Assembly: GCF_007856155.1 (NCBI RefSeq)
Contig: NZ_CP042266.1
Coordinates: 310,001-374,000, forward strand
Source: Streptomyces qinzhouensis
Lineage (GTDB): Bacteria > Actinomycetota > Actinomycetes > Streptomycetales > Streptomycetaceae
Reading direction: 5' to 3'
DNA length: 64,000 bases
Shown: positions 27,788 to 48,614 of the stretch, in pieces
How the letters are laid out: the number at the start of each line of letters is the position of its first letter
How positions within the stretch are numbered: the stretch's first letter is position 1
Program-made: the position numbers and the translations under genes
Notes under the pieces: generated by a model
Seen by the model: the letters and a program-made list of their open reading frames with translations, nothing else
The model's database searches: none
Told to the model about the DNA's origin: nothing

Positions 27788-29029
27788 TCACAAAGCCGTC
27801 TTGGCAGTCGCCGCAGCGAATCCGTTTCCTTCCGGTCCTGTCGCAACCAGCTTGGAAACGCGCTGGAGCCGAGCGGTCGAGGCTCGGCCTACCTTCTCCA
27901 CGATGACGGAGGGAAGGGCCTGGTGCCGGGCCCAAACCGGGTGGTCGAGGAGCGCCCGCTCCAAAGTGTCCAGGGACGCGTCCCACATCTTCGCCTCGGC
28001 CTGCGCCATCGCCTTGTCCATGGCGTACCGGCTACGCGCGGCCCCGGAGAGTGCTGCCTCGTGGTGCGGATTAATGTCGGCAATGAGCCCGAGGGCCTCG
28101 CCAGTCCGGCCGAGAGCCACCTTGATTCCGACTGCCTGGGTACTCGCCGTCACCGGGCCGAAGACTGTGCCATGGGCCCGCTCCTCGCGCCCCATCCGAG
28201 CACCGGCGGCATGCGACTGGCTCAGGTAGTCCCCGACCAGCTCTTCGTCCCCAATGCGCGACGCGACAACGGCGGCGAAGTTGATGTGCGATCCGTAGGC
28301 GACCAACTCGCCCGTGGTAGCTCGGGAGAACCTGGGCTCGATATCGGTAGCTGCCTTCTCCGCGAGCGCCAGGGAATCCGCCAACCGAGCGTCCCTCAGG
28401 TAGATCCACGCCCGTCCGGACATCACGAGAGCGCTGCTCAGGCCATCATCAGCATGGGAGGCGGCGAATTGCGCATGCCCAATGGCAGCGTAGGCAAGAT
28501 CCCGTGACCCCATGAGATTCGCCACATAGGAAGCCAGTCGGTACGCGTCCGAGAGAAGCCTCCATGCCTCCGCACGCTCACCATCGGGCTGCTCCCGCAC
28601 CCGTGCTCCTGCTTCCGCAATGAGCTGACCGGCCACAGCTCCGGCAGCCACGTACTTCCCGTCCCAGTAGAGGTCCCAGCATTGCTTGGCGGTTGTTTCC
28701 AGCGTACGGAGCGGCGGCGCTGCAACGTTGTCGGGGAAGAGGCCGGCAGCGGTGTCGTGCACCGCCCGAGAGAGGGCCTTGATCGTTGCACGATCATCCT
28801 GCTCCATCCCCCGGTGGGGCCCCTGTTGGCCGAGGAGCACCGAGGTATCCGTCCCCAGGGCATTGGCAATCAGGAGAAGAGTGTGCAGAGTCAGGCGCTT
28901 GTCCTGTTCGGCCTGCTGCACTGTGGGCAGTGACAGCCCCGTCAACTCGGCGAGATCGGTCTGTCGGAGAGTCTTTCCTCGAAGGATCTTGATGCGCTGA
29001 CCGGTGGTGTACTCACTCCAACGCGCCAT
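27788..29029 (-). CDS. XRE-family regulator with TPR-like C-terminus
   Basis: The 413-residue protein has an HTH at residues about 8-60 (QRIKILRGKTLRQTDLAELTGLSLPTVQQAEQ), followed by about 330 residues of helical repeats (LLSDAYRLASYVANLMGSRDLAYAAIGHAQFAA; DARLADSLALAEKAATDIE). Such TPR-type regulators often respond to a signal molecule. ATG at 29029 follows AGGAGA. It is the first gene of the leftward group that includes the small protein, the zinc-ribbon protein, the methyltransferase and the Nudix hydrolase, and probably controls them. Confidence 0.82.
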   Translation of the reverse strand: MARWSEYTTGQRIKILRGKTLRQTDLAELTGLSLPTVQQAEQDKRLTLHTLLLIANALGTDTSVLLGQQGPHRGMEQDDRATIKALSRAVHDTAAGLFPDNVAAPPLRTLETTAKQCWDLYWDGKYVAAGAVAGQLIAEAGARVREQPDGERAEAWRLLSDAYRLASYVANLMGSRDLAYAAIGHAQFAASHADDGLSSALVMSGRAWIYLRDARLADSLALAEKAATDIEPRFSRATTGELVAYGSHINFAAVVASRIGDEELVGDYLSQSHAAGARMGREERAHGTVFGPVTASTQAVGIKVALGRTGEALGLIADINPHHEAALSGAARSRYAMDKAMAQAEAKMWDASLDTLERALLDHPVWARHQALPSVIVEKVGRASTARLQRVSKLVATGPEGNGFAAATAKTAL

Positions 29030-29130
29030 ACCAGTCTCCTGATTCTCAGTCGTCCCCCGGGAACGGTACCCGTGGTATCTGCGCCTGAGTACAAGAATGA
29101 CCCCGGTCCGGGGTTCCGGTGGAGGGCCCG

Positions 29131-29219
29131 GGCGGTAGTCCCCGCCTGCGGGGAGCACGCGAGGACGTACGCGAGGTCCTTGACCCGGACGGGACCATCC
29201 CCGCGCCTGCGGGGAGCAC
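29131..29219 (-). CRISPR. CRISPR array 2 (minimal, 2 repeats)
   Basis: One perfect repeat at 29192-29219 and one degenerate repeat at 29131-29158 (starting GGCGGTAGTCCCCGC) flank a 33-bp spacer. The spacing is 61 bp, as in the other arrays. The degenerate leader-distal copy and single spacer suggest a shrunken array. Confidence 0.8.
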
Positions 29220-29262
29220 ACTCCCTGACCTGGGTCTTTCCCAGCCGCCACACGCCAGCCTG
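29220..29262 (-). promoter_or_regulatory. Truncated CRISPR leader 2
   Basis: The sequence after the last repeat begins CTCCCTGACCTGGGTCTTTC and continues CAGCCGCCACACGCC, matching the repeat-proximal third of leader 1. The middle block and the TATGAT-type block found at leaders 1, 3 and 4 are absent; the next gene's stop is reached at 29282. The array may lack its own promoter. Confidence 0.65.
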
Positions 29263-29281
29263 CAGTGGAGGCCGCTCAGGT

Positions 29282-29650
29282 TCACTCGGCCGCCGACCGG
29301 GGGGCGAGTTGCGGGAAGGCGTTCTCCCACGCCTCGCGGGCGGCCCGCGGGATCAGAGTGCGCAGGACGGGCCACTGGGATGTGAGCAGGCCGGCGTCAA
29401 AGTAGGAGGTGAGATCGTCGCGCTGGCCCTCAGCCAGGACTGTGCGGTAGAGGCTCATACGCGAGCGGGGTCGGTCCAGGTCCCAGGTCCGCAGGCCCGA
29501 CCAGACGATGTGCAGGGGAAGGCTGATCTCGCCCTGCCGGGGGCCGTCGAGTTCCTCCAGTGTCCCGGGCAGCCGGGCCGCGTAGCGGGCACGGAGGACC
29601 TCGGCGGCGGGCGGAGTACCGGGTGCGGAGGGGACGGTCATACTCGCCAT
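29282..29650 (-). CDS. Small hypothetical protein at the end of the deazapurine cluster
   Basis: This is a 122-residue helical protein: [98 protein letters not shown]. It starts at ATG 29650. I do not recognise the family. Its strand and position, 105 bp after the exonuclease start-to-stop unit, suggest it belongs to the same leftward transcription unit. Its small size and position next to a nuclease gene leave open an accessory role. Confidence 0.6.
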   Translation of the reverse strand: MASMTVPSAPGTPPAAEVLRARYAARLPGTLEELDGPRQGEISLPLHIVWSGLRTWDLDRPRSRMSLYRTVLAEGQRDDLTSYFDAGLLTSQWPVLRTLIPRAAREAWENAFPQLAPRSAAE

Positions 29651-29754
29651 TATGGCTTCCGCATTGCGGACGGAGCCGAGGATACCTGGCCGCGACTGCC
29701 GGACGGACCGAGGCCGGTGGTACCGGCCGGGCGGTGCGCGGTGCGGGTCGGAGA

Positions 29755-30588
29755 TCACCACAGGTTCATAGCTTCGAGGACATCGGGCGCTTTCGGCAGG
29801 GGCGGGGTGGGCAGGCCGGCCAGGAGTTCGTCGGGGAGGTCCGTCTTGGTGTCGAGCCGGATCATCTCGCGCCAGCGCAGCACGGCCGGCCACCCGGTGG
29901 TCCAGGCGGGGCGGAGCTCGGCCACAGGGATGGCCCCCAGGTGCCGCCCGTCGGCGAGGAGGCGGGCGGCGGTCTTCGGACCCACCCCCCGCAGCCCGGC
30001 GATGTTGTCGGCCGGGTCGCCGGTCAGCGCCCGGTAGTCGGCCCACTGCGCGGGGTGGACACCATAGCGAGGGTAGATGTGCTCGGCGATGGTGTACCGG
30101 CGGTCCAAGCCGAGACCGGTGTTGAGGAGGCGGACGGCCGCCTCGCCTCCGCACAGGAGCTGGATGTAGTCCTTGTCCGCGCTCATGATGTCGACCGGCC
30201 GCCCGGCGGCGCGGGCGCGGGTGGTGAGGGTGGCGATCACGTCGTCGGCCTCGCAGCCATCCTGCTCGATCCACCGGACCCCGGCGTGGTCGAGGGCCGC
30301 CTTGACCAGCGGGAGGGAGTCCATCAGCCCCGGATCGGGGGCGGGGCGCTGCCCTTTGTAGGCGGGGTCCTGTTCCAGACGGGTCTGGGAGCCGTTCTCG
30401 GCGTCGAAGACGGTGAAGACCTCGAACCCGGTGGCGTGCTGGGCCTGGGCTTTGCGCAGGAGGGCGGCGAATCCGAACACCCCGGTCCGGTCGACCGTCT
30501 TGTCCCGGTTCCAGATGCGTGCGGCGAAGCCGAACCAGGCGCGGTGGAGGAGGTTGTGTCCGTCGACCAAGAGAAGGGGGACGGTCAT
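29755..30588 (-). CDS. FEN-type 5'-3' exonuclease
   Basis: The 277-residue stand-alone homologue of the N-terminal nuclease domain of DNA polymerase I and T5 exonuclease has all acidic clusters present: LLLVDGHNLLHRAW, VFDAENGSQTR, the YKGQRP arch region, EQDGCEADDVIATLTTRA, IMSADKDYIQLL and GDPADNIAGLRGVGPKTAARLL (helix-hairpin-helix). It should cut 5' flaps or degrade DNA or RNA-DNA from 5' ends with two metals. Housekeeping copies are normally encoded elsewhere in actinobacteria. Here it closes a cluster of preQ0 and glycosyltransferase genes, which is unusual. Confidence 0.88.
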   Translation of the reverse strand: MTVPLLLVDGHNLLHRAWFGFAARIWNRDKTVDRTGVFGFAALLRKAQAQHATGFEVFTVFDAENGSQTRLEQDPAYKGQRPAPDPGLMDSLPLVKAALDHAGVRWIEQDGCEADDVIATLTTRARAAGRPVDIMSADKDYIQLLCGGEAAVRLLNTGLGLDRRYTIAEHIYPRYGVHPAQWADYRALTGDPADNIAGLRGVGPKTAARLLADGRHLGAIPVAELRPAWTTGWPAVLRWREMIRLDTKTDLPDELLAGLPTPPLPKAPDVLEAMNLW

Positions 30589-30669
30589 GTGGGGCCTCCA
30601 GAGGGGTGCGTGCTGGTGGGGGCCTGTGACCGCGGCGGACGGGCATGCGGGGGCCGGACGGGGGCGATT

Positions 30670-31965
30670 CTATCGGCCCGGCCCCGGCGGGGAGGGCCAG
30701 ATGCTGGTCAGCAGCGTGGCGAGGTGCCGGGCGGCGTCCCGCTCGGCGGCCACCCGCCGGTGGGCGGCCTCACGGAGGGCGGACCGCTCGGTCTCGGTCA
30801 GGCCGAGGGCCCGGCGCAGCCCGGCGGTGAGCGCCCCGGGGCGGGTGGGGTGGTAGAGGAGGCCGTTGTGGCCGTCGGTGATCTGTTCGGGGAAGCCGTC
30901 GATCGCGGGGGCGAGAACGACCGAGCCGTGGCCGCGGGCCCACAGGCAGGTTTCGAAGACTATGTTCGCCAGGGTCTCGCCGAGGCTGGGAACCGCCATG
31001 ACCCGCGAGGTGGGGAGGGCGGCGAGCGCGCGGGGCAGCTCCGGGTCGAAGTGCCCGACCACGGTGGCGTCCAGCCGGAGTGCGGCGCAGCGCTCGCGGT
31101 AGACGTCGAGAAGGCGGGCGCGGTCGTCGTCGGTGGGGACGGCGATCATCGCCAGATGCGTCCGGTCGCGCAGAGGCGCTGCGGCTTCGATGAGGAGGTC
31201 GAGGCCCTTGGTGCGGTCGGTGCGGCCAACGGCGGTGATGAGCGGACGGTCGGTCGGGATGCCGTGATGGCGGGCGGTGTGTTCGGCCTCGGCGGGGGTG
31301 GGCGGACTCAGGCGGGGGTCGGTGAGGTGGAGACCGGACGGCCAGGGCCGCACCCGGTCGGAGCGCAGGCCGTAGGTGTCGTGGAGGTGGCGGGTGAGGA
31401 AGTCACCGATTCCGGCAGCCCACACGCGGGGGCGCTGGTTGACCGCGGTGATGGCGGCGGTCTCCCAGGTGAGGCGGCCGGGGTCGGGGTGGGGGCGTTC
31501 GGTGATGCGGGCGGTGGAGAACAGGGCGAGCACCGTGTCGACGCGCGGATTGGTGCCGGCGTGGTGGGCGAGTCCGGCGAAGGGTGTATCGACGCCGATC
31601 ACCAGGACCCGCTCATGCACGACTGCGAGCGTTGCGGCGGCCCGGGCGGCGCCGGCGGACAGGGCCTGCCAGTTCGCGGGGCGCCACATCGGCGCGCCCG
31701 CGTCCCAGCTCAGGGGGATGACCCGGCCGCCGAGTGCTTCGACGACCGTGCGGGCGTGGGCAAGGTCGGCCGGGTCGTAGCCCCACAGCGCCGGGCCCGG
31801 CTCGGGGACGGCGAGGTAGGGGGTGAACGCACCTACCTGGACGGTGAGGGCGGCGTGGTGCTGCTGGAGGGTGCCGAGGAATGTCTTGGTCTGGCGGCCG
31901 ACGCCGTTGGTGTTGTTGGCGATCCCGTTCACGGCGCAGTACAGCAGCGCCCGGTCGGTGCGCAC
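30670..31965 (-). CDS. Glycosyltransferase family 4-like protein
   Basis: The 431-residue GT-B protein has an N-terminal acceptor half (CAVNGIANNTNGVGRQTKTFLGTL) and a C-terminal nucleotide-sugar half with TAVGRTDRTKGLDLLIEAAAPL, the HxxP-like RVMAVPSLGETLANIVFETCLWARG (E-x7-E region) and GFPEQITDGHNGLLY. It starts with GTG at 31965. It probably transfers a sugar from an NDP donor; the acceptor is unknown. The next gene upstream is the RT-like protein, and a second GT-B enzyme lies beyond it. Confidence 0.85.
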   Translation of the reverse strand: MRTDRALLYCAVNGIANNTNGVGRQTKTFLGTLQQHHAALTVQVGAFTPYLAVPEPGPALWGYDPADLAHARTVVEALGGRVIPLSWDAGAPMWRPANWQALSAGAARAAATLAVVHERVLVIGVDTPFAGLAHHAGTNPRVDTVLALFSTARITERPHPDPGRLTWETAAITAVNQRPRVWAAGIGDFLTRHLHDTYGLRSDRVRPWPSGLHLTDPRLSPPTPAEAEHTARHHGIPTDRPLITAVGRTDRTKGLDLLIEAAAPLRDRTHLAMIAVPTDDDRARLLDVYRERCAALRLDATVVGHFDPELPRALAALPTSRVMAVPSLGETLANIVFETCLWARGHGSVVLAPAIDGFPEQITDGHNGLLYHPTRPGALTAGLRRALGLTETERSALREAAHRRVAAERDAARHLATLLTSIWPSPPGPGR

Positions 31966-31995
31966 GATGTGAGGGCCTTTCCTGGTGGTCGGGGG

Positions 31996-32793
31996 TTATC
32001 CGGCGGCGTAGAGGTCTTCCGCGTGGGGCCGCCAGATCTTCGACTTGGCCGTGGCGACGGTCATGCCGTGGGCGGTGAGCAGGCCGGTGAGGTGGGACCA
32101 CGCCTGGTCGGCGGCGGGCCGGGTGGGGCAGAAGATCGTGTAGTTGTCGGTCATCCGTACGACCCGGTGGCCGTCGAGCCGGTGGTCGACGGGGGTCATA
32201 CGGAGGTTGGTGAGCAGGGGGCTCAGGCCGCTGCCGGGGGCGAGCGGGTCCGGGAGGGCGGTGAGGATGCGCCGGACGACCTTCAGGAGGCTGCCGTCGT
32301 GGACGAAGCGGGCCACGGAGCCGATCGCGTCCTCCAGGGCGACGCCGGTGGAGGCGGCGGCGATGTCGATGTCGACGACCCACCGATGTCCGGCGGCGAG
32401 GTGGCGGGCTGCGGCGGCGACCGCGAGGGACCGCCCGGCCCTCGGCCGCCACCCGTACATCCACGGCGGGTACGCGCCGTGGGCGAGGACGGGCTCGATC
32501 GCGTTGCGGACGGCGCGGTGGACGATCCGGTCGGTCACGGTCGGGACGGTGACCGTGTGCCGCTTGCCCCAGGCGTCGAACATCACGGTGCGGTGCTGGC
32601 CCGGCTGCCACGTTCCGTGGGCCAGGGACGCGGCGAGGACGGCGAGGCGGTCGGGCATGTCCTGGCGGAACGCCCGCCAGGACATGCCGTCGCCGCCCGG
32701 GGCTCCCGTGCGGCCCATGCACTGGCGGGCGGCCCGCTTCAGCCCGCGCTCGCCCAGCTGCCCGATCAGGGAGTGCGCGGCCGGGCCGTTCAC
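31996..32793 (-). CDS. Divergent reverse-transcriptase-like protein
   Basis: The 265-residue protein aligns by eye with group II-intron-type and related prokaryotic RTs: GAPGGDGMSWRAFRQD (RT1), GKRHTVTVPTVTDRIVHRAV (RT2) and MYGWRPRAGRSLAVAAAARH. It continues with motif A RWVVDIDIAAAST (D141, D143), motif B GSGLSPLLTNLRM in place of PQGxxxSPLL, and motif C RMTDNYTIFC in place of RYADDFVIL. The second Asp of the catalytic pair is thus Asn217, and the aromatic before it is lost. No maturase, endonuclease or RNase H domain follows. GTG at 32793 overlaps the upstream stop (GTGA). It may be inactive, RNA-binding, or use altered chemistry. Confidence 0.75.
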   Translation of the reverse strand: MNGPAAHSLIGQLGERGLKRAARQCMGRTGAPGGDGMSWRAFRQDMPDRLAVLAASLAHGTWQPGQHRTVMFDAWGKRHTVTVPTVTDRIVHRAVRNAIEPVLAHGAYPPWMYGWRPRAGRSLAVAAAARHLAAGHRWVVDIDIAAASTGVALEDAIGSVARFVHDGSLLKVVRRILTALPDPLAPGSGLSPLLTNLRMTPVDHRLDGHRVVRMTDNYTIFCPTRPAADQAWSHLTGLLTAHGMTVATAKSKIWRPHAEDLYAAG

Positions 32794-33893
32794 CCGCGGG
32801 CCCGGGTGATCACGTCAAGGAACGCGGACGCCACCGCGGCCGAGGAGTGCCCCGTGACCCGGCGCGGCCCTTCGGTGGAGGCGGCGTGGTAGCCGGCCCG
32901 ATCAGCGAGGAGCCCGGCGGCGTCCGCCCACAACCGGCCGGGGCCGTCTTCGAGGTCGGTCATCCGCCCGGCCGTTCCGACGAGGTCGGGCAGGTTTCCC
33001 AGCCCGTAGCCGACGACCGGGGTGCCCACCGACAGGGCCTCGGCGGCGACGTTCCCGAACGTCTCCGGGCTCGTCGAGGAGACGATGGTGACCGCGGCCC
33101 CGGCCAGAAACGCCGGTATCTCCTGCCACGGCATCCCAGCCAGCAGCTGTACACCGGGGAGGCCGGCGGCGAGGGCCTGGCATCCGGCGATCACTTCGCG
33201 TTGCATCCCGGGCCAGTACTCGAACCCCGCCTCTGCCAGCACGATCTCCACCGCCCTGCCCAGGTCGGTGGGGACGGCGCGGAGGAGTTCCGCGATGCCC
33301 TTGTGCGGCTCCGCGCGGGCCACGATTCGCACCGGCCCGTGCCCGCGCTGCTCTTCCCGTTCGGCGGGGGACGGGGCTGTCACGTCGTGGAGGAGGGCGT
33401 TGGGCACTACCCGCCAGCCGGTGGTGTCCACGCCCTGTTCGGCCATATCCCGGACCATGAACGGGCTGACCGTCACGACCTCCTGGGCGTGCTCCAGACT
33501 CCGCAGCAGGGGCTCGTCGGTGCGCGGGACATGGACCATCAGCACGCTGGTGGTGCCCGCGGGGGCCGGGGCGAGGTAGCCGAGGCCCCATACGGCGTCC
33601 ACCCAGCACACGACGTCCACCCGCCGTTCGGCCAGGGTCCGGCGGACTTCGTCTTCGACCGGTCGGGGGTCGGCGAGGAGGACGGTGAGGTCGCCCTCCA
33701 CCGCGGGGCGCGGCAGGGACAGCGACCGAAGGCGTAGCACGTCGTCGCCGTCGTTCGGAGTGGGCGGGTCGGCGGCCAGGATGAACGCCTCGTGTCCGAG
33801 GCCGTGCAGACCTCGGGCGAGCGCGGCGACGCTGCGCTCGATGCCCGCGGGCTCGTCGGGGTTGTGGGTGAGCAGGACGAAGGCGATGTTCAC
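32790..33893 (-). CDS. Glycosyltransferase family 4 protein
   Basis: This 367-residue GT-B enzyme has NIAFVLLTHNPDEPAGIERSVAALARGLHGLGHEAFILA at the acceptor side. The donor side is the usual RIVARAEPHKGIAELLRAVP and STSPETFGNVAAEALSVGTPVVGYGLGNLPDLVG (the E-x7-E donor loop). It starts with GTG at 33893, overlapping the SUMF1-like gene's stop, and its stop overlaps the start of the RT-like gene, so all three are translationally coupled. The sugar is unknown. Confidence 0.88.
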   Translation of the reverse strand: MNIAFVLLTHNPDEPAGIERSVAALARGLHGLGHEAFILAADPPTPNDGDDVLRLRSLSLPRPAVEGDLTVLLADPRPVEDEVRRTLAERRVDVVCWVDAVWGLGYLAPAPAGTTSVLMVHVPRTDEPLLRSLEHAQEVVTVSPFMVRDMAEQGVDTTGWRVVPNALLHDVTAPSPAEREEQRGHGPVRIVARAEPHKGIAELLRAVPTDLGRAVEIVLAEAGFEYWPGMQREVIAGCQALAAGLPGVQLLAGMPWQEIPAFLAGAAVTIVSSTSPETFGNVAAEALSVGTPVVGYGLGNLPDLVGTAGRMTDLEDGPGRLWADAAGLLADRAGYHAASTEGPRRVTGHSSAAVASAFLDVITRARG

Positions 33894-34603
33894 GCGACTC
33901 CTCCAACGAGGCGGACGGGGCGGATGCCGATGCCGGGCGAGGACAGATGGCCGGGGACGTCGTTGGCGTGGGCGCAGCAGGCGTACTGGACCAGGGAGTG
34001 GTAGGAGCCGCCGCGCAGCAGGGCGATGCGGTCGCGGCGCCACGGAGCGGTCGTCCACTCCCACACGTTGCCGCCAACGTCCCACAGCCCTTCGGGGGTG
34101 CGGCCGGCCGGGTGGGCGGTGACCGGGGTGGCCCGGCAGGGACCGAAGCCGCGGAGGTTCGCGGTCCCCGGTACGGGTTCGGTATCGCCCCAGGGGAAAC
34201 GGCGGTGGCCACCCCGGGAGGCCATCCACTCCCACTCCGCCGAGGTCGGCAGCCGCCCGCCCATCTCGGCGGACAGCTGGGCGGCCTCCAGCAGGGCGAG
34301 CCCGGTGACGGGCATCCCTTCCCGGGCGAGCGGCGCCGCGGCCCACCACAGGTCCGGAACCGTCTGGGCGGGGTGCCACTCGCCGGCCGGTCCGGTGCCG
34401 CCGGATATCCGGATCCAGCCCACCGGGTCGAGCCCGGCCGCTACCGTGGAGAGGTCCCGGGCAGCAGGCACGTTCCCTCTTGGTGGAACCGGCCCGCTCA
34501 CCAGCACTCGCGGGCTCGCCGACGGTGAAAGACGGCCCTGCCCGGGCACCCCACCCACCCCCCGTCCGCTGGCGGGGGCGGTCGTCCGGTCATGACGTCC
34601 CAC
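33890..34603 (-). CDS. SUMF1/formylglycine-generating-enzyme-fold protein, catalytic Cys pattern altered
   Basis: The 237-residue protein has the C-type-lectin-like SUMF1 fold markers GGRLPTSAEWEWMASRGG, FPWGDTEPVPGTANL, GGNVWEWT and LLRGGSYHSL, then SSPGIGIRPVR at the end. In true FGE the segment is RGGSWLC-x4-YC with two catalytic cysteines. Here the first position is Ser and the second is shifted (YACC), so formylglycine synthesis is unlikely. SUMF1-fold C-termini are also a frequent target scaffold of diversity-generating retroelements, which is notable because an RT-like gene lies two genes downstream. GTG start at 34603, overlapping the HAD gene. Confidence 0.8.
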   Translation of the reverse strand: MGRHDRTTAPASGRGVGGVPGQGRLSPSASPRVLVSGPVPPRGNVPAARDLSTVAAGLDPVGWIRISGGTGPAGEWHPAQTVPDLWWAAAPLAREGMPVTGLALLEAAQLSAEMGGRLPTSAEWEWMASRGGHRRFPWGDTEPVPGTANLRGFGPCRATPVTAHPAGRTPEGLWDVGGNVWEWTTAPWRRDRIALLRGGSYHSLVQYACCAHANDVPGHLSSPGIGIRPVRLVGGVA

Positions 34604-35276
34604 CGCGCACCACCTCCGCCTGCGTCTCCAGGCCGGGGATGTGGGGGAGGAACTGTTGGAGCCGGGCGACCGTGACAGCGGGGGAGGTGGCGTGGACCGT
34701 GGTCATGCCCAGCGCCCGGGCGGGCGCCAGGTTCTCCTCGTTGTCGTCGACGAACACACACCCCGTTCCCGGGAGGCCAAGCAGGCGCAGGGTGAGCGCG
34801 TAGATCCCGGGCTCCGGTTTGCGCATCCCGTGCTGTTCGGACAGGACGACCAGGTCGTGGCACTCCTCCAGCTGCCACGGACCGTACGGGTTGTGCGGGA
34901 AGAGGCCCATGGAGTTCGACAGCACCGCCGTGCGCACCCCGCCCGCCCGGATCGCCGCCGCTGCGGCAACAACGGATTCCTCCGGGCTGAGGGTCGCCAG
35001 CGCTCGGCCCATCAGATTCGTGCCGTCGATCCCGAGCCGGACGCCCATCTCCGCGTTCCACCGCTCCTGGGTGATCTCGCCCCGCTCCAGGCGCGCGTAC
35101 AGTTCCCGCCCGGCCGGGTCGACGGCGACCGTCTGCCGGTACGCGTCCTCCGGAAGTCCGGTATCGCGGGCGAAGTTGCGGGCGGTGTCGTCCATGGGGG
35201 TCGTCAGCACCCCGCCGAATTCGAAGACCACCGTGGAGAACCGCCGCTCCGCCGGGGCATGTCGGGCCCGGGTCAT
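34590..35276 (-). CDS. HAD-superfamily protein with Asp-to-Glu at the nucleophile
   Basis: The 228-residue HAD subfamily IA-like protein has motif I VVFEFGGVLTT, motif II TAVLSNS, the motif III lysine in GMRKPEPGIY and motif IV VFVDDNEENL. The usual motif I is DFGG or DxDx; here the nucleophile position is Glu (GAA codon in EFGG). A phosphatase would normally need Asp, so activity may be lost or altered. The start overlaps folE's stop (ATGA). In deazapurine clusters a HAD phosphatase (ToyI type) removes the 5'-phosphate of the nucleotide; this could be its relative. Confidence 0.82.
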   Translation of the reverse strand: MTRARHAPAERRFSTVVFEFGGVLTTPMDDTARNFARDTGLPEDAYRQTVAVDPAGRELYARLERGEITQERWNAEMGVRLGIDGTNLMGRALATLSPEESVVAAAAAIRAGGVRTAVLSNSMGLFPHNPYGPWQLEECHDLVVLSEQHGMRKPEPGIYALTLRLLGLPGTGCVFVDDNEENLAPARALGMTTVHATSPAVTVARLQQFLPHIPGLETQAEVVRGGTS

Positions 35277-35881
35277 CGGGGGCCGCCGAGGGCGGTGGCG
35301 CGGAACCAGTCGGCCGGCGGGCCGGGCTGGGCGAAGACGCCGTGCAGGCTGGAAGAGGTGGTGAGGGCGCCGGTGGCGCGGATGCCGCGGGCGCTCATGC
35401 ACGCGTGGCTGCCGGTCGCGGCGACCGCCACATCGGGCGAGCCGGTCGCCTTCAGCAGGTCGGTGGCGATGCCGTTCACGATCCGCTCCTGCAACTGGAG
35501 CCGGTGGCCGCGCGCGACGGCGATCCGCGCGATCTTCGACAGCCCGATCACCTGCCCGCCCGGCCGGTACCCGGCGCTCACCGTGAGGGTCATGGGCTGC
35601 AGGTGGTGCTCGCACAGGGAGTCCACGGTGATCCCGGACACGACCACCAACTCGTCCCCGCCGGCCATGGCCGTCTCGTGGGTGAAGACGGTGTCGGTGC
35701 GGCCCGGGTTGTACTCCAGGAACTCCGCCCACCAGCGGGCCACCCGCTCCGGAGTGTCGGTGAGGCCGTCGCGGGCGGGGTCCTCGCCGAGCTCGGTCAG
35801 CAACTGGCGGTAGAGGTCGGCGACGCGCGACTGGTCGATCCGAGCCCGAGCCGGGCCGTCGGGGGGTGCGAAGGTCGTCAT
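35273..35881 (-). CDS. folE: GTP cyclohydrolase I
   Basis: The 202-residue enzyme has zinc ligands C90 and H93 (DSLCEHHLQPM) and C161 (SHACMSARGI), and the substrate segment QVIGLSKIARI. It converts GTP to dihydroneopterin triphosphate, the first step of preQ0 (7-deazaguanine) as well as folate. Its position between HAD and WbqC genes, within a unit that also carries QueC, QueD and QueE, argues for a dedicated pathway copy. The start at 35881 (MTTFAPP) is coupled by ATGA to the WbqC-family gene. Confidence 0.93.
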   Translation of the reverse strand: MTTFAPPDGPARARIDQSRVADLYRQLLTELGEDPARDGLTDTPERVARWWAEFLEYNPGRTDTVFTHETAMAGGDELVVVSGITVDSLCEHHLQPMTLTVSAGYRPGGQVIGLSKIARIAVARGHRLQLQERIVNGIATDLLKATGSPDVAVAATGSHACMSARGIRATGALTTSSSLHGVFAQPGPPADWFRATALGGPR

Positions 35882-36612
35882 GCCAGGGCCTTCCGGATAG
35901 TCGGGTTCCACAGGTGGGTGCGGGCGGCGGACTCAAGGACGGCGCGGGCGCGGGGGCCTTCGTGCATCAGGAGGTCCAGCACCGACAGACCGGCCGGACG
36001 CCGCCCGCCCGGCCCGTACGGGGGATGGGTGTAGGTGGCGACCTCGACCCGGATCCCCGCCCTGGCGAGCACGGCGGGGTCGAGGTAGCCCAGCGCGCCG
36101 GTGCCCACCCGCAACACCCCCATCCCGTACCGCCGGCACAGGTTGGTCAGCGCCGCCGTTCCCGAACCGGCCGGCGGACACGAGCTCGTCGCCTCCAGAC
36201 GGACGTCGATGCCGAGGGCGGCGAGGCAGAAGCGGATGGTCGCCTCGCTGAGCGGGACCAGGTGCGTCCAGCGTTGCGCGTACAGGGTCTGGAGTCCGTC
36301 GGCGTACCGATCCCAGTACGGCGCCCGCCTGTACACGGCTGTGAGGGTGCGCCAATGGCGTCCGGTGAACTCCTCGTCGGCGATCCGGACCTCGGTCAGC
36401 GGCTGGCCGAAGCGGCGCCGCACGGGGACGGTGAACCGGACCGGTGGTCCGTCGCGTCCGGCGATCGTGTTGCGGTGCTGGAAGCCCCGCTCGGAGAACT
36501 GGACATGGTCCAGCACCACCAGCTGTCCGGTATCGAGGAGCCGGGAGAAGTAGCCCGGCCAGGGCCAGTACGCGGGCTGATGCACCACCAGAACCGAACC
36601 TGCCGGGTTCAT
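35878..36612 (-). CDS. WbqC-family protein
   Basis: The 244-residue protein has the WbqC signature region VVHQPAYWPWPGYFSRLLDTGQLVVLDHVQFSERGFQHRNTIAG, then WRTLTAVYRRAPYWDRYADGLQTLY and the C-terminal GLSVLDLLMHEGP. WbqC-like proteins occur in O-antigen and other glycan clusters and are of poorly known chemistry. The gene is translationally coupled to folE and PIG-L neighbours. Together with the deacetylase and two GT-B enzymes it suggests that the end product carries an unusual sugar or amino-sugar. Confidence 0.85.
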   Translation of the reverse strand: MNPAGSVLVVHQPAYWPWPGYFSRLLDTGQLVVLDHVQFSERGFQHRNTIAGRDGPPVRFTVPVRRRFGQPLTEVRIADEEFTGRHWRTLTAVYRRAPYWDRYADGLQTLYAQRWTHLVPLSEATIRFCLAALGIDVRLEATSSCPPAGSGTAALTNLCRRYGMGVLRVGTGALGYLDPAVLARAGIRVEVATYTHPPYGPGGRRPAGLSVLDLLMHEGPRARAVLESAARTHLWNPTIRKALA

Positions 36613-37295
36613 CGGGCCACCAGCCGGTACGGGACGAACATCTCGGCCATGGCGGTGCCGGCCGACGCCCCGGCCGCCCGGTCCAGGGCGGCGATCGTCT
36701 CCACGCTCCGGGGGTGCGGATCGTCGCGCATCTGGGTGGTATAGGCGGCCAGGGCCTTCGCCTTCGTCTCCCACACCCCGCCGGTGTCCACCGCCACCGT
36801 CCCCCGCGCCGTGGGTCCGGCGGTCCAGAGGGTGTCCTCGGGACCGCGGTAGCCGAGCACCAGGGAGGGGGCGTGCCCGGAGGGACGGGCGGCGGCGAGA
36901 CCGGCGTCGTGGACGGCCCGGTGGTCCTGATGGAATGAACCTGCGGCCGGGATCAGCAGCCCGGCCGGGCGCAGCACGCGCAGGCTCGGCCCGGGGCCGG
37001 ACTCGATCAGGTGTACCACCTCGGCCATCCGGCTGCCCGGGTCGGTCGCCGCCTCGCCACCGGGGAAGGCGATGTGTTGGGAGGCGACGCCGAGCACGGT
37101 GCACGCCTGGTCGAGTTCGCCGGCGCGCACCACGGGGTCGCTGCCCGGGTGGCTGCGGCAGGCGATCACCAAGACATGGACCGTGACACCGGCCATCGTG
37201 AGGCGGGCGATCGTACCGCCCGCGCCGAGGGTCTCGTCGTCCGGATGCGGCGCGACGACCAGCACCGTACTGCCTGGCGGTAATCCGAAGATCAT
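36609..37295 (-). CDS. PIG-L family deacetylase
   Basis: The 228-residue zinc enzyme has the PHPDDETLGAGG motif at residues about 20-31 and the second metal/catalytic site FHQDHRAVHDAG. The C-terminal KAKALAAYTTQM is also typical. It removes an N-acetyl group from an amino-sugar-type substrate (LmbE/MshB/GlcNAc-PI deacetylase fold). ATG at 37295 follows GAGGAGA. The gene starts after a 60-bp gap below the DUF6884-PRTase gene, the only real break in the upper part of the unit. Confidence 0.88.
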   Translation of the reverse strand: MIFGLPPGSTVLVVAPHPDDETLGAGGTIARLTMAGVTVHVLVIACRSHPGSDPVVRAGELDQACTVLGVASQHIAFPGGEAATDPGSRMAEVVHLIESGPGPSLRVLRPAGLLIPAAGSFHQDHRAVHDAGLAAARPSGHAPSLVLGYRGPEDTLWTAGPTARGTVAVDTGGVWETKAKALAAYTTQMRDDPHPRSVETIAALDRAAGASAGTAMAEMFVPYRLVAR

Positions 37296-37356
37296 CGAAT
37301 GGTCTCCTCTTGCCGTGGGAGGGATACGGGCCGAACCGGGGCACGTGCGCCCCGTG

Positions 37357-38373
37357 TCACACCGGGAAGGACGGCGCGGCGGTGGAGGTGTGGACGCGCT
37401 GGGGGTGCGGGAGCAGCGTCGAGCCGTCCGGGGGCGGGGCCTCCCAGGGGAAGCAGGTCCAGTCCGCGACCGGCCACACCCACACATCCAGCGGAAAGCC
37501 GGCTGCGCCCTCGTTGCGGCATAGCACCGCTGTCCGGGCCTCGACGCCCGCGGCGGCGAGAAGCGTGGTGACGACCCGCAGCGTGGCGCCGGTGCCGCAG
37601 ATGTCGTCAGCGACCAGCACCCGGCGCGCCCCGGCGACCGCCGCCAGCAACCGCTCCTCGTCGACCTCGACCTCTCCGGTGGACTGGATGCCGATCAGAT
37701 CCGAGACGTTGTGCCGTGCCGAGACCTCGACAGCCGGAACATTGAGGATCCGGGCCGCCTCACGGGCGAGCGGGACCCCGCCGCGGGCCAGCCCGACGAC
37801 GAGTTCGGGGGCGAAGGGCCGCTCGTTCGCGGCGATGAGCGCCGCCGCCGCGCGGAAGGCGTCCTGGCTCATCCGCCAGATCCGCTTCCCCTCGAAGACC
37901 CGGCTCCCCGCACAGCCCGCCCGCGTGGCCGGTAAGGCGGTCCAGCCCCACCCGTCCAGCACCAGGGCCGCGGCCGGCCAGTGCCCGGCCGGGTCGCTCA
38001 CCGTGTGCACGACCGGCACCGGCATCCGTCCCAGCGCCCGTAAGTACAGGGGCTCCAGGAGCAGCAGCACTTCCTCGGCCGGGTGCCGGGCCAGGTGCTC
38101 GCGCAGCCCGGCCGATACCTCCCGCCGCAACTCCGCGACGCGCTCCGTGGTCAGCGGCTGCTCGTACGGTGCGACGGGGGTGTCTGCGGTGAGAAGCCCG
38201 TGTCGTGCGGACACGATCAGCGTTCGTGCTCGCAGTTCGGGGCGGTGGGCAATCCGTTCCCGCAGTTGCGGGAAGCACCACCCCCCGTACAGTTCCAGCG
38301 CGGGCCGGGTGGTGGGGGCTTTGCGGCGGGAGCAGCCGGTCACCACCAGGCCGCGCGGCGCGGGGGTGTTCAT
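37357..38373 (-). CDS. DUF6884 domain fused to a phosphoribosyltransferase
   Basis: The 338-residue two-domain protein has residues about 8-155 of DUF6884 type (VVTGCSRRKAPTTRPALELYGG...TLIVSARHGLLTADTPVAPYE). Residues about 185-310 are a type I PRTase fold with the PRPP loop VLVADDICGTGATLR and a hood region (LARGGVPLAREAARILNVP). PRPP-dependent attachment of ribose-5-phosphate to a base is the expected reaction. In a preQ0 cluster this could make the 7-deazaguanine ribonucleotide (compare ToyH). DUF6884/YaaA-like domains act on or near modified bases in some systems, but the activity here is inferred. Confidence 0.8.
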   Translation of the reverse strand: MNTPAPRGLVVTGCSRRKAPTTRPALELYGGWCFPQLRERIAHRPELRARTLIVSARHGLLTADTPVAPYEQPLTTERVAELRREVSAGLREHLARHPAEEVLLLLEPLYLRALGRMPVPVVHTVSDPAGHWPAAALVLDGWGWTALPATRAGCAGSRVFEGKRIWRMSQDAFRAAAALIAANERPFAPELVVGLARGGVPLAREAARILNVPAVEVSARHNVSDLIGIQSTGEVEVDEERLLAAVAGARRVLVADDICGTGATLRVVTTLLAAAGVEARTAVLCRNEGAAGFPLDVWVWPVADWTCFPWEAPPPDGSTLLPHPQRVHTSTAAPSFPV

Positions 38374-39113
38374 CAGCGCACCCCCAGGGTGAGGTGGAGC
38401 CGGCCGGAGAAGTGGAAGCCGTGTTCCATCACCCGCTCCACCACTGCCCGTCCGGCCGCCTCCCATGCCGGGGCGCTGTCGCCGAGCGGCATCACCCACA
38501 CCCGCCCCCGCGGAAGCTCGTGGGTCCGCACGAGCTCGGCGATCTCCTCGACCTCGTTCACATCGCCCGCGACGAACTTGAAGACCGCGCGGCCCTGTTC
38601 GGCGAGGCGGGCGAAGCCGTCGAGGACCTGAGGCCGGATCCGGCGCTTTACCGGGTCGGCCGCGCCCATGGCCCCGGTCTTCAGGGACACGCTGAAGTGC
38701 GCGACCTTCTCCCGGGTCAGGTCGGTGGGGAAGATGGTGCCGTTGGTCTCCATATGGACCTCGCCCGGCAATCCGGTGAGGAGCACCGACCATGCGGGGG
38801 TGCGCTGCCACAGCAGTGGCTCGCCCCCGCTGATCACCGTGAGGCAGTCGCCGCCCGCACCGAGCGTCACGGCGGCCGAGACGATCTCCTCGGCCGTGCG
38901 CGGCGGGCAGGTGGCCTCGAGGTCGTAAAGACTGGTGTCCCAGGTCCGCTTCGAGTCGCACGGCGGGCAGTGCAGATTGCACCGGCCCAGCCGCACGAAC
39001 ACTGCCGCCCGGCCGCTGTAGGGGCCCTCACCCTGGGGGACCGGACCGAAGATCTCCTGCACCGGAAGCATCTGCCCCCGGACCGGTATCGAAGGAACAG
39101 AGCTGCTGCTCAT
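38373..39113 (-). CDS. queE: 7-carboxy-7-deazaguanine synthase (radical SAM)
   Basis: The 246-residue radical SAM enzyme has the CX3CX2C cluster C45, C49 and C52 (GRCNLHCPPCDS), the QueE-like N-terminus (QEIFGPVPQGEGPYSGRAAVFVRLG) and the GGEPLLW loop. It contracts 6-carboxytetrahydropterin to 7-carboxy-7-deazaguanine, using SAM, Mg2+ and a 4Fe-4S cluster. ATG at 39113 overlaps the queD stop (ATGA); its stop shares one base with the next start. It is the third enzyme of the preQ0 route, after FolE and QueD. Confidence 0.93.
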   Translation of the reverse strand: MSSSSVPSIPVRGQMLPVQEIFGPVPQGEGPYSGRAAVFVRLGRCNLHCPPCDSKRTWDTSLYDLEATCPPRTAEEIVSAAVTLGAGGDCLTVISGGEPLLWQRTPAWSVLLTGLPGEVHMETNGTIFPTDLTREKVAHFSVSLKTGAMGAADPVKRRIRPQVLDGFARLAEQGRAVFKFVAGDVNEVEEIAELVRTHELPRGRVWVMPLGDSAPAWEAAGRAVVERVMEHGFHFSGRLHLTLGVR

Positions 39114-39790
39114 CGGGGACTCCGGGTGTACTCGGCCCAGCTCGTTTCCGTCTCCGACACCCGCACCGCGACCGGGCCGACCTTCGGGGCCGGGCCGAGC
39201 TGGGCGGCAAAGTGCTCGGCGAGGAGCTCTGAGGTGGGGTTGAAGGCGACCACGTCGTTGAGGACCGACCCGTCCAGCACCCCGGCGACGTACCTCCGCA
39301 ACCGCTGAGGGATGGGCGCAGGACTCTCCTGGTCCCCCGGGGTGCGGGGGACGGTGATGAGATAGGAGTGGCCGTGGAACCTTCCGCACGGGTGCCCGGC
39401 AGGCAGGCCGCGCAGCCGGTGCGCCGCCCCGAACTCCACCGTCGCGGCTCCGGGGCCCGGGCGGGCCCGGCCGGGCCGCACCCGCACGCCCTCCAGCACC
39501 GGGGCGACGTCCGGGGGCAGATGCTCCCGTGCCCAGGCGGTGAGATGCGCGGCGATCCCTGTGTCGGTGACATCCGGGACCTGGCCGTTGAGGACCTGGT
39601 GATCGAGGACCGCGTCGATGTATTTCTTCAGCGAGGCCAGCCGCCCGAAGTCGACGACGAACCCCACCTCATCCAGCCTGCTCGCGGACAGGACCGCCTC
39701 CGCGGTGAAGGAGTGCCCGTCCAGGCTCCCCCCGGTCTCGCGGGCCGCCTCGAAACGGAAGACCTTCCCGATCCGCCACACCCCGCTCAC
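39110..39790 (-). CDS. queD: Tandem two-domain 6-pyruvoyltetrahydropterin synthase-like QueD
   Basis: The 226-residue protein holds two T-fold domains where normal QueD (about 120 aa) has one. The N-terminal half keeps the Asp-His catalytic pair LDHQVLN (D63, H64) but has lost most zinc ligands (DGHSF, H26 only). The C-terminal half keeps the zinc and Cys set AAHRL (H124), C135, FHGHS (H139, H141) and the SETETSW glutamate, but the Asp-His pair is LDGSVLN. The two halves thus look complementary, as in a fused pseudo-dimer forming one composite active site. It makes 6-carboxytetrahydropterin. Confidence 0.85.
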   Translation of the reverse strand: MSGVWRIGKVFRFEAARETGGSLDGHSFTAEAVLSASRLDEVGFVVDFGRLASLKKYIDAVLDHQVLNGQVPDVTDTGIAAHLTAWAREHLPPDVAPVLEGVRVRPGRARPGPGAATVEFGAAHRLRGLPAGHPCGRFHGHSYLITVPRTPGDQESPAPIPQRLRRYVAGVLDGSVLNDVVAFNPTSELLAEHFAAQLGPAPKVGPVAVRVSETETSWAEYTRSPR

Positions 39791-40497
39791 CGGGCCACCA
39801 TTGCGCCGGCCGGGGCCGCGTAGCGCGTGGGGTCCACGATGCCGGCGAGGGCGAACGCCTCCTGGCGCTCACTGCACGTCCCGCACGTCCCGCAGTGCAC
39901 CGCCCCGCCCCGATAACAGGACCAGGTCAGCTCGAACGGCACGCCGAGCTGGTGCCCGCGGCGGACGATGTCCACCTTCGTCCCGTTCAGGAACGGCGCC
40001 TCCAGCCGGAACTCGTCCACGAGGAAACCCTCGTTTCCCGTCAGCAGGGCCCCGTTCAACCGCTCGAAGAACCCCGGGCGGCAGTCGGGGTAGATGACGT
40101 GGTCCCCGCCGTGCGCACCGAACGCCACGATCTCGGCCCCGCGGGCGACGGCCAGCCCCGCGGCGACCGACAGCATGATCATGTTGCGGTTGGCGACGAC
40201 CGTCGCCCTCATCGATACATCGCTGTAGCGGCCGTCCGGCACCTCGACCGAAGCGTCCGTGAGCGCGGACCCGGCCAGCAGCCGTCCAACGCCGGTCAGA
40301 TCGACGCGCTCGTGCGGCACGCCCATGCGTGCGGCGGTCTTCTCCAGGTACTCCAGTTCGACGCGGTGGCGCTGCCCGTAGTCGAAGGACAGCAGCGTCA
40401 CCCCGATCCCGCGGGCGGCGAGGTCGTAGGCGGTCACTGTGCTGTCCATGCCGCCGGAGGCGATGAGCACGGCCCGCGGGCCGCTGTTCTCGGTCAT
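39787..40497 (-). CDS. queC: 7-cyano-7-deazaguanine synthase
   Basis: The 236-residue PP-loop ATPase (SGGMDS, residues 14-19) has the QueC C-terminal cysteine cluster SCYRGGAVHCGTCGTCSERQEAF that binds zinc. It converts 7-carboxy-7-deazaguanine with ammonia and ATP to preQ0. ATG at 40497 follows AAGGAGA. It is the first gene of the leftward unit and overlaps queD by 4 bases. No QueF (preQ1 reductase) or TGT gene is in the window, so the route appears to stop at preQ0 or divert. Confidence 0.93.
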   Translation of the reverse strand: MTENSGPRAVLIASGGMDSTVTAYDLAARGIGVTLLSFDYGQRHRVELEYLEKTAARMGVPHERVDLTGVGRLLAGSALTDASVEVPDGRYSDVSMRATVVANRNMIMLSVAAGLAVARGAEIVAFGAHGGDHVIYPDCRPGFFERLNGALLTGNEGFLVDEFRLEAPFLNGTKVDIVRRGHQLGVPFELTWSCYRGGAVHCGTCGTCSERQEAFALAGIVDPTRYAAPAGAMVAR

Positions 40498-40801
40498 CCA
40501 GGTCTCCTTCACCGTGTCGGATGGTCCTGTCGGTCGTCAGCGCATGCCGGGGCCGCTGACGGCACCGTCAAGGTGTGTGTGAGGAAGGGGAGGTCCCGCT
40601 GCCGCACCCGGGCACAGGGTCCGGGCACGTGCGGGTAGGCCAGATGCGTGCGATCGGGCGGAGGCGTGTTCGAGCCCGTCCGGAGGAGTCGAGTGTGCGT
40701 TCAACTCGGGCCGACGGTCCATGAGTTGGCGGGGGTCCCGTCGGGGGTCCCGTCAGGCCGGAACCGTTCCCGGCCGCGTCCGCCGGTGGGACGATGCGAG
40801 C
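40498..40801. promoter_or_regulatory. Divergent promoter region between queC and the XRE-TPR gene
   Basis: The 304-bp intergenic region contains a tandem copy of GGGGGTCCCGTC (about 40729-40752) close to the regulator gene start. An inverted or direct repeat of this kind is a plausible operator for an XRE protein. No clear -10/-35 hexamers are assigned. Confidence 0.45.
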
Positions 40802-42109
40802 GTGGAGACCACCAGTCACCCGCTCGCGCTGGCCCGCCTCGCCGCCGGCATGACCCGGGTCGAATTCGCGGCCCGCGTCCGGGCCGCCGCCGCCCGGCGG
40901 GGCCTGCGCTCAGGCACCGACAAGCACCGGGTCCGCAAGTGGGAAGTCGCGGACGTCACCCCCGACGCGGAGGCCCAGCTGTACATCGCCGAAGTCCTCG
41001 GCATCCCGGCCCGCGCGGTCACCCCGGCCCAGTGGCCCAACTGGCTCCCGGCGGCCGTGGTCCCCCTCGGCCCGGCCAGTACCGTTCCCGCTCTGCGAGA
41101 GGCATTGAGAACTGTGGACCGCCGATCCTTCATCACCGCCGTCCCGGCCGCCGCCACCGTCGCCCTCGCCGCTGACTGGGCCCACGCCACGCCCAGCGCC
41201 CTGACCGCCGCTGCCCGTGACGGCAAACCCATCGGGGATGACGTTGTCGAACTGCTGGAGGACGGGGCTCGCCGCCTCACCGGTCTGGTCACCGAGCAGC
41301 GCCAGCACATGGCAGCCCTGCTGGACTCCCACCTCACCACCGTGACCGACCTCATCGCCCAGGGCCGATACCCCCACCGGCTCGGAATCCGCCTCCACCG
41401 GCTCGCCGCCTCCCTGGCGCAGACCGTCGGCTGGTGGCGCTTCGACCACGGCCGCCACCACGACGCCACCGTCTACTGGACCGCAGCCCTCCACAGCGCC
41501 CACGCCCTCGCGGATCCGGATCTCGGCGCCAACACGCTGGGCGACCTCGCCTACCAAGCGGCCTGGCGCCGCGACCACAGCACCGCCGCCACCCTCCTGC
41601 GCCACGCCCTCAGCCGCGCCGAACACCCCGCTGCCCAGGCACTGCTCCAGCTCCGGTACGCTCGCGCGCTGGCCGCCCAGGGAGAGAAGCGGGAAACCCT
41701 CCGGGCCCTGGACGCCGCCGAGTACCTCCTCGGCGTCTCAGCCTCCCGGCCCCGGCCCGCGTTCTGCACCTGGCTCTCCGAAGCCGACCTTGCGGTCGAT
41801 TCCGGCCAGGCACTCCTGCAACTCGGCGACACCCGCCGCGCGCACCGGCTCATCGCCGAAGGACAGCGCCTCCTGCCCGCCAGCCGCGCGAAAACCGCGG
41901 CCGTCTTCCGTACCTACCAGGCCGCATCCGACCTGGAACGCGGCGAACCGGAACGCGCCGCGGAAGCCGCCCTCGCATCCGTCCTCGTCGCCCGCCGGAT
42001 CGGCGCGCCGCGTTGCGAACAGCTCGTCAAGGACCTCGTCCCCCGCTTCCAGCGTTACCGCAGCGCCGAGGGTGTCCCCGAACTCCTCGACCTCGCCCGC
42101 GCTACCTGA
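40802..42109 (+). CDS. XRE-TPR regulator divergent from the preQ0 cluster
   Basis: The 435-residue protein starts at GTG 40802. An N-terminal HTH-like region (MTRVEFAARVRAAAARRGLRSGTDKHRVRKWEVADVTPDAEAQLYIAEVLG) is followed by about 330 residues of TPR-like helices (ALSRAEHPAAQALLQLRYARALAAQGEKRETLRALDAAEYLL). It resembles transcriptional regulators with TPR repeats found next to secondary-metabolite and unknown clusters in Streptomyces. The divergent arrangement with queC suggests it switches the leftward unit. Confidence 0.8.
   Translation: METTSHPLALARLAAGMTRVEFAARVRAAAARRGLRSGTDKHRVRKWEVADVTPDAEAQLYIAEVLGIPARAVTPAQWPNWLPAAVVPLGPASTVPALREALRTVDRRSFITAVPAAATVALAADWAHATPSALTAAARDGKPIGDDVVELLEDGARRLTGLVTEQRQHMAALLDSHLTTVTDLIAQGRYPHRLGIRLHRLAASLAQTVGWWRFDHGRHHDATVYWTAALHSAHALADPDLGANTLGDLAYQAAWRRDHSTAATLLRHALSRAEHPAAQALLQLRYARALAAQGEKRETLRALDAAEYLLGVSASRPRPAFCTWLSEADLAVDSGQALLQLGDTRRAHRLIAEGQRLLPASRAKTAAVFRTYQAASDLERGEPERAAEAALASVLVARRIGAPRCEQLVKDLVPRFQRYRSAEGVPELLDLARAT

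Positions 42110-45997: not shown

Positions 45998-46001
<4 letters not shown>
44268..46001 (+). CDS. Large partner protein of the recombinase trio
   Basis: The 577-residue protein starts with GTG inside the upstream stop. It has a SAM-like N-terminal region (TAESTWKKLHLFARFLSELERPPPDLDGLTAAMLKRWR) like phage-integrase arm domains. The C-terminal half lacks the Arg-His-Arg-Tyr set and instead has a Cys-His segment (DYLLCLACPNAHVHPGHHPRL) that could bind zinc. It matches the position of TnpB-type genes of Tn554-like elements. It is probably a recombinase relative that has lost catalysis and serves as DNA-binding partner. Confidence 0.6.
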
Positions 46002-48567
<2,566 letters not shown>

Positions 48568-48614
48568 GCTCCCCACAACTACGTAGCACGTGAGCGCAGG
48601 GCTGCCAGGTTGGC

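Follow-up and report, generated by a model that had tools for sequence, protein, structure and literature searches.

An actinobacterial 7-deazaguanine cassette with a reverse transcriptase-like protein and a conserved structured RNA element

FolE, QueD, QueE, and QueC make preQ0 by established pathways, and the toyocamycin cluster also encodes a phosphoribosyltransferase (PRTase) and a HAD phosphatase. Reverse transcriptases (RTs) are known from introns, retrons, diversity-generating retroelements (DGRs), CRISPR adaptation, Abi/DRT defense, and DNA repair. We analyzed 64,000 nt of Streptomyces qinzhouensis, positions 310001 to 374000 of an 8.15-Mb single-contig genome (the window), and describe here a cassette in which preQ0 genes are found together with an RT-like protein, a FEN-type exonuclease, a protein of the SUMF1/FGE fold, and a conserved structured RNA element. 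The RNA element, which an earlier note on this sequence had missed, is the most unusual part of the locus. The combination of deazaguanine genes, RT-like protein, nuclease, and structured RNA matches no system that we found and is rare in actinobacteria. We recognized no description of the gene set or of the RNA element in the literature searched, most subscription journals lying outside that search.

With preQ0 clusters of the toyocamycin/huimycin type, the cassette shares FolE, QueD, QueE, and QueC, all encoded together in the window, as well as a glycosyltransferase. Unlike in those clusters, the RT-like protein, FEN, SUMF1, and the structured RNA are constant in the cassette. Huimycin needs seven genes, huiA to huiG, and the accessible part of the huimycin report mentions neither a reverse transcriptase nor a radical SAM protein (PMC7439116). 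The Dpd DNA modification islands likewise combine preQ0 genes with a DUF6884 domain, the name given to the dpdC domain in the accessible part of PMC11888242; the reaction of DpdC is termed that of an amidohydrolase in the part of PMC6884629 available to us. In contrast to these islands, 31 of the 32 cassette genomes lack TGT/DpdA (PF01702), in a search that was positive for 14 of 14 controls, and a PADLOC scan of ten window proteins showed none of the other Dpd components. The absence of TGT makes it unlikely that preQ0 enters tRNA or DNA by base exchange, and a Dpd-like base exchange is thus disfavored. The PRTase offers an alternative route for preQ0. PTPS proteins (the QueD family) were present in all 21 genomes searched, cassette copies counted.

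The RT-like protein resembles the RTs of group II introns and domesticated G2L RTs in its finger-palm fold and sequence. However, at 265 amino acids it lacks a thumb/maturase part, the YADD motif has become xxDN, and no intron RNA match was found beside it in Rfam. In DGRs, as here, the RT adjoins an FGE-fold (C-type-lectin-like) protein, and a DGR RT structure matches the RT-like model at a TM score of 0.80. A search for template and variable repeats in 37 loci and the window gave no non-self match of at least 40 nt to the 3' end of SUMF1, and the DGR reading was rejected because this end has no second copy. Retrons and DRT defense RTs also have an RT near a conserved RNA element and a patchy spread, but the cassette differs from them in its weak family matches, its lack of YxDD, the apparent location of the RNA opposite to the operon, and its biosynthetic neighbors.

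The structured RNA element and its strand

In 38 loci, codon statistics left a gap of 50 to 410 nt before SUMF1 (type I cassettes) or RT (types II and III; layouts are given below), whereas most other neighboring genes overlap, and this gap harbors a single conserved element. The gene caller had been trained on the cassette's own codon statistics and shortened the SUMF1 and RT starts, as judged by eye from the frames. Model R2 finds the element at 100.8 bits in the window (34436-34551, plus strand). Rfam gave no match at an E value of 5 in 29000-41000, and two chance-level matches only in 34380-34620.

The models R1 and R2 each find the element in 42 of 44 sources, missing a locus that starts inside RT (L033) and a viral fragment (L035); an Embleya plasmid locus (L110) that is in neither model scores 91.2 bits. 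Of 394 Streptomycetaceae genomes, R1 matches the 11 that carry the cassette RT and no others, with one copy each, and among 396 genomes drawn over the phylum it matches the window's own genome only; both searches were run with stricter filters. L033 and L035, in which the region is lacking, were left out, as was L053, the same locus as L004. Alignment A6 was made without L027 and L029 (2 bases each from L026) and L032, while alignment A2 and the frame count were made without L007, L008, and L056.

The element was read successively as a coding-strand noncoding RNA (ncRNA) or riboswitch, as an mRNA structure, and finally as an opposite-strand RNA. No stop interrupts the frame of the downstream gene within the element in 37 sequences, compared to 36 and 34 stops in the two alternative frames, and start codons are found upstream of it. 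The element thus overlaps the 5' coding part of SUMF1 in type I and of RT in the other types, two unrelated proteins. An intergenic ncRNA or a coding-strand riboswitch was dropped because the frame crosses the element in all sequences tested. Although translated in frame, the element evolves unlike coding sequence: differences at the three codon positions amount to 0.12, 0.16, and 0.20 in the element versus 0.16, 0.11, and 0.38 downstream, and the G+C content at third positions is 0.66 versus 0.86.

The argument about the strand is a comparative one, because the sense and antisense structures derive from largely the same loci, with differing pairs. In the opposite-strand structure, 96.3% of the cells are paired, and 98.6% in the outer helix (38 sequences), while the sense-strand structure has 91.3% of its cells paired (35 sequences). 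The covariation score of the opposite strand is 0.448 versus 0.197 for shuffled alignments (0 of 500 shuffles). Both sides have changed in 137 cells versus 43.5, and slid controls gave 38 to 45%, a comparison that favors the structures, since pairs were counted on the same alignments that had yielded them. Alifold returned -86.6 for the opposite strand and -78.8 for the sense strand, the minimum-energy folds contain 0.83 and 0.59 of the respective consensus pairs, and of 35 sequences, 25 fold better on the opposite strand and 4 fold worse. Furthermore, A.C mismatches outnumber G.U pairs (46 versus 17) in three helices of the sense strand. On the opposite strand, all 38 sequences have, in identical columns, a TANNNT box, which we take to be an actinobacterial -10 box; it lies 7 nt ahead of the first stem letter, and this letter is itself able to pair in 30 of the 38. 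On the grounds of folding, wobble pairs, and the TANNNT box, the element is apparently a putative ncRNA encoded on the strand opposite to the operon.

Conservation of the cassette and its proteins

Among 7,999 candidates scored in a protein collection, the RT-like protein had 91 matches, including the window's own, and the named organisms were all actinobacterial. A profile scan of GTDB contigs led to 32 loci in Streptomyces, Actinomadura, Nocardiopsis, and many Pseudonocardiales. Altogether, 42 loci outside the window were collected via the RT-like gene, so that its presence in 42 of 42 is by construction; any other gene was counted as present if its tblastn match reached 45 bits or more, at whatever place within the locus. 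SUMF1, DUF6884, and one glycosyltransferase (GT4a) were found in all 42 loci, queC, PRTase, and PIG-L in 40 each, and FEN in 39. Several of the absences fall at contig ends (FEN in L005 and L032, queC in L033), and L023 is a truncated cassette.

Gene calling and clustering of the mapped loci resolved one syntenic cassette with three layouts. Type I (the window, L003-L011, and L110) harbors WbqC and a second GT4. Type II (L030 and L054-L062) has the order queC-queD-queE-RT-SUMF1-DUF6884-GT2-radical SAM-PRTase-GT4-FEN-PIG-L, often followed by folE; GT2 counts were not used, because the GT2 query also matches in type I loci. In type III (the rest of L012-L034), queD and queE are mostly missing from the block. 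A protein of about 160 amino acids without a Pfam match (c9) precedes queC in many type III loci (L013:8618-9103 and relatives). Accessory aminotransferase, oxidoreductase, and methyltransferase genes are variable and occur in some loci.

The earlier note had asked whether the genes for the RT-like protein, the exonuclease, and SUMF1 co-occur with the que genes across actinobacterial genomes. They do: the combination is kept in different families, and these genes are interspersed among the biosynthetic ones. Its description of a leftward, mostly overlapping run also holds, since neighboring genes are codirectional and mostly overlap or nearly abut in the window and in 38 related loci. All domains that it had named were recovered by Pfam at the places given for them (RVT_1, exonuclease, FGE-sulfatase, two GT4, HAD, FolE, WbqC, DUF6884-PRTase, PIG-L, QueC, PTPS, and radical SAM). 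As for gene membership, the core set proved to be conserved in the 42 loci, but the small protein that it had included lies outside the cassette and the HAD phosphatase is accessory (3 of 42).

In the 394 Streptomycetaceae genomes, an RT match at an E value of 1e-20 was present in 16, and in 11 of these it was the cassette RT. The other 5 genomes carry 6 matches to RTs of 333 to 445 amino acids, with YADD seen in 4 of the 6, and no cassette genes were found beside them in the 3.7-kb loci read. Four of the 394 genomes have a cassette-type FEN but no RT, in the form of GT4b plus FEN, of a set without the queC-RT-SUMF1 end, or of FEN alone. Since FEN without RT is confined to partial sets, no complete cassette without RT was seen among these genomes. 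The RNA element is missing beside FEN without RT, where the search gave two matches only (12.7 and 12.6 bits; E values of 0.84 and 0.88). L104, L105, L106, L107, and L108 contain either part of a cassette or a cassette-type FEN gene by itself, in each case without RT and RNA element.

Several observations bear on mobility. L026, L027, and L029, from two Amycolatopsis species and Prauserella flavalba, are nearly identical, flanks included (2 bases each differing from L026 over 20.8 kb), which reflects either a recent transfer of the cassette or contaminated assemblies. A tyrosine recombinase-like gene adjoins the window cassette, phage tail genes (DUF6093, HK97-gp10-like, and tail tube) directly follow the cassette at L061:15317-19661, and a T2SSE-type ATPase gene lies beside L016. 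One of 72,556 plasmid records had a match. A viral origin was rejected, since viral contigs gave a single short match, at an edge (L035), and 50,697 phage records gave none. Sciscionella marina carries three cassette copies (L014, L018, and L023), one of which is truncated after PRTase.

The predicted structure of the RT-like protein (pLDDT 88.9) matches group II intron RTs over their finger-palm part. The aspartates of YADD correspond to D216 and N217; of 91 aligned homologs, 90 have D at the first of these positions and 89 have N at the second. In an alignment to 5hhj, D143 occupies the place of a motif A aspartate, presumably the catalytic one. The FFD of motif A is replaced by A-S-x and the Q of motif B by P. 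The protein is conserved but unlikely to act as an ordinary processive polymerase. In PADLOC, its best matches are the generic RT and RT-Cas1 models, those to DRT and retron models being much weaker: the best DRT-type model, RT_UG21, scores 32.2 bits versus 121.1 for the generic RT model. In a separate scan, Drt4 scores 21.2 bits with a cutoff of 450.

FEN has D9, D62, E113, D115, D116, D138, D140, D191, and D194 invariant in 39 sequences, and its nuclease thus appears intact. The PRTase keeps a DDxxGTGxT-like motif across loci, and Cys194, Cys202, and Cys205 of QueC are invariant. FGE and EgtB, the catalytic SUMF1 enzymes, rely on a catalytic Cys pair or iron-binding His residues; in the cassette SUMF1, structural residues are conserved, but alignments of 22 and of 38 sequences show no invariant Cys or His. 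A model of DUF6884 (pLDDT 93.1) has YaaA, SMUG1, and AF0587 as nearest structures.

Possible functions of the cassette

We favor, at about even probability, a self-contained cassette that spreads horizontally among actinobacteria, makes a 7-deazaguanine nucleotide (or nucleoside) in glycosylated form, and includes a putative RT-derived ribonucleoprotein. After synthesis of preQ0, the PRTase would join it to phosphoribosyl pyrophosphate, and DUF6884, which is weakly DpdC-like and has an invariant Cys14, may act on the C7 nitrile. Glycosyltransferases would add amino sugars that PIG-L de-acetylates, and radical SAM/GT2 or WbqC/GT4b would provide type-specific tailoring. The RT-like protein, an altered group II-type RT, may bind the structured RNA to form a ribonucleoprotein within the pathway that could serve as scaffold, enzyme, or regulator, while SUMF1 would be a noncatalytic binding subunit and FEN would have a nucleic acid of this pathway as its substrate. 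The PRTase, the glycosyltransferases, PIG-L, and the accessory aminotransferase and oxidoreductase genes favor a nucleotide-derived glycoconjugate. The self-protection that the earlier note had proposed along with a glycosylated deazapurine found no direct support.

A number of results weigh against this explanation. A conserved -35 box is lacking, with at least 4 of 6 letters in only 8 of 35 sequences, and a sigma-70 scan found no promoter in 29000-41000. Folding of single sequences barely beats shuffles (z scores of -0.24 to -1.33 for the sense and -0.43 to -2.22 for the opposite strand), and part of the element's conservation could be coding, since it is translated in frame. A PRTase was not found by tblastn in L034 and L110 among the 42 loci. 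The match of DUF6884 to the PADLOC DpdC model is weak (20.7 bits; E value of 5.6e-5), and the domain has no solved relative at an E value of 0.001.

The locus might instead be an ordinary preQ0-derived nucleoside antibiotic cluster, with RT-like protein and FEN for regulation or self-protection and the RNA acting in cis as an antisense regulator of the second block of the operon. We consider this doubtful, despite the resemblance of the preQ0 genes, PRTase, and glycosyltransferases to toyocamycin and huimycin clusters, the variable accessory genes, and the overlap of the RNA with the start of a coding region: RT and SUMF1 lie in the middle of the operon, FEN is nearly constant, and an antisense regulator needs complementarity but no conserved fold. 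Nor was a transporter seen among the recurring genes identified, part of the recurring genes having stayed without identification. Another explanation dispenses with a separate RNA and sees in the element an mRNA structure on the sense strand, for example, a site of translational control to which the maturase-like RT binds. The open downstream frame in 37 of 37 sequences fits this, as do the many pairs that the sense strand can form too; the excess of A.C mismatches over G.U pairs, the better folding of the opposite strand, and the constant position of the TANNNT box do not, and we hold it to be improbable.

Somewhat less probable still is an anti-phage or mobile-element defense system made of an RT and an ncRNA, with a modified nucleotide as effector. 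The patchy spread of RT and RNA element (11 of 394 genomes), the near-identical copies in three species, and the phage tail or recombinase genes adjoining some copies would suit such a system, but the RT matches DRT and retron models far more weakly than generic RT models in PADLOC, its motif C is altered, and biosynthetic enzymes dominate the gene set. The least probable of these alternatives is nucleic acid modification, as the earlier note had envisaged, with a glycosylated 7-deazaguanine placed in RNA or DNA without TGT. Proteins such as FEN and the RT-like protein handle nucleic acids, and DUF6884 is shared with DpdC by name; yet TGT/DpdA is missing from nearly all cassette genomes, which speaks against base exchange, and no kinase or ligase was recognized among the cassette genes.

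A bolder version of the cassette pathway, to which we assign a small likelihood similar to that of a defense system, is a nucleic acid-scaffolded natural product with the small RNA as working scaffold and the RT as core enzyme. The thumbless RT palm (YADD to DN) would then add or hold a 7-deazaguanine nucleotide on the small RNA, glycosyltransferases, PIG-L, and radical SAM/WbqC would tailor it there, and FEN would release the finished nucleotide. If the favored explanation, a glycosylated 7-deazaguanine cassette with its own ribonucleoprotein, is true, an RT-derived protein with its own structured RNA in a nucleotide biosynthesis operon would represent a new kind of RT job, and 7-deazaguanine chemistry would gain a route other than base exchange by TGT and simple nucleoside antibiotics. 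The RNA element is an immediate experimental handle, and its covariance model can be used by others to detect more cassettes.

Features and surroundings in the window

The genes form one run on the minus strand from queC to FEN (29755-40497), in the order queC, queD, queE, DUF6884-PRTase, PIG-L, WbqC, folE, HAD, SUMF1, GT4, RT-like, GT4, FEN (Table 1). DUF6884 and PRTase are a single open reading frame (ORF) in the window but two genes in the related loci that were laid out, and another HAD family (c34) follows FEN in four Streptomyces loci. The small ORF that ends the run is placed outside the conserved cassette, because it has no Pfam or NCBIfam match and joined no protein cluster of at least two loci.

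Table 1. Coordinates of the cassette features in the window (counts refer to the related loci)
Feature	Position	Strand	Evidence	Related loci or remark
queC (preQ0 synthase)	39787..40497	-	Pfam QueC, E 1.9e-59	40/42
queD, two-domain PTPS	39110..39790	-	Pfam PTPS, E 8e-27, two stretches	23/42, in locus
Radical SAM protein read as queE	38373..39113	-	Pfam Radical_SAM, E 1.1e-8; CxxxCxxC	23/42
DUF6884-PRTase fusion	37357..38373	-	Pfam	DUF6884 42/42, PRTase 40/42
PIG-L de-N-acetylase	36609..37295	-	Pfam PIG-L, E 1.2e-17	A PIG-L in 40/42
WbqC family protein	35878..36612	-	Pfam, E 5e-49	10/42; type I cassettes
folE, GTP cyclohydrolase I	35273..35881	-	Pfam, E 8e-47	16/42
HAD phosphatase, accessory	34590..35276	-	Pfam	Window-type HAD in 3/42
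Structured RNA element, ~93 nt (putative)	34455..34547	+	Ends inferred from TANNNT box and outer stem	
TACCGT, TANNNT box read as -10	34442..34447	+		7 nt before outer stem
SUMF1/FGE-fold protein	33890..34603	-	Pfam FGE-sulfatase, E 1.8e-16	42/42; 5' coding part overlaps RNA element
GT4 glycosyltransferase a	32790..33893	-	Pfam	42/42
RT-like protein, group II type, motif C MTDN	31996..32793	-	Pfam RVT_1, E 3e-13; homologs; structure model	
GT4 glycosyltransferase b	30670..31965	-	Pfam	10/42; type I cassettes
FEN-type 5'-3' exonuclease	29755..30588	-	Pfam, N domain 1e-33, C domain 3e-12	39/42
Small ORF ending the run	29282..29650	-		Not conserved with cassette

A fusion of a helix-turn-helix domain and a polypeptide deformylase is encoded divergently upstream of queC at L003:1335-2804 (minus strand), with relatives in L005, L006, L007, L054, L055, and L059; the Pfam assignment was checked for L003. 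In the window, positions 42808-48567 hold a phage integrase-like gene followed, in the same direction, by two long ORFs without a Pfam match and a 140-amino-acid ORF, possibly a recombinase trio adjoining the cassette. At 44646-44734, inside an ORF, ARAGORN placed a tRNA to which it gave no type and an anticodon of four bases, probably a false positive. Finally, the G+C content falls to 0.579 at 48001-50000, compared to about 0.7 elsewhere.

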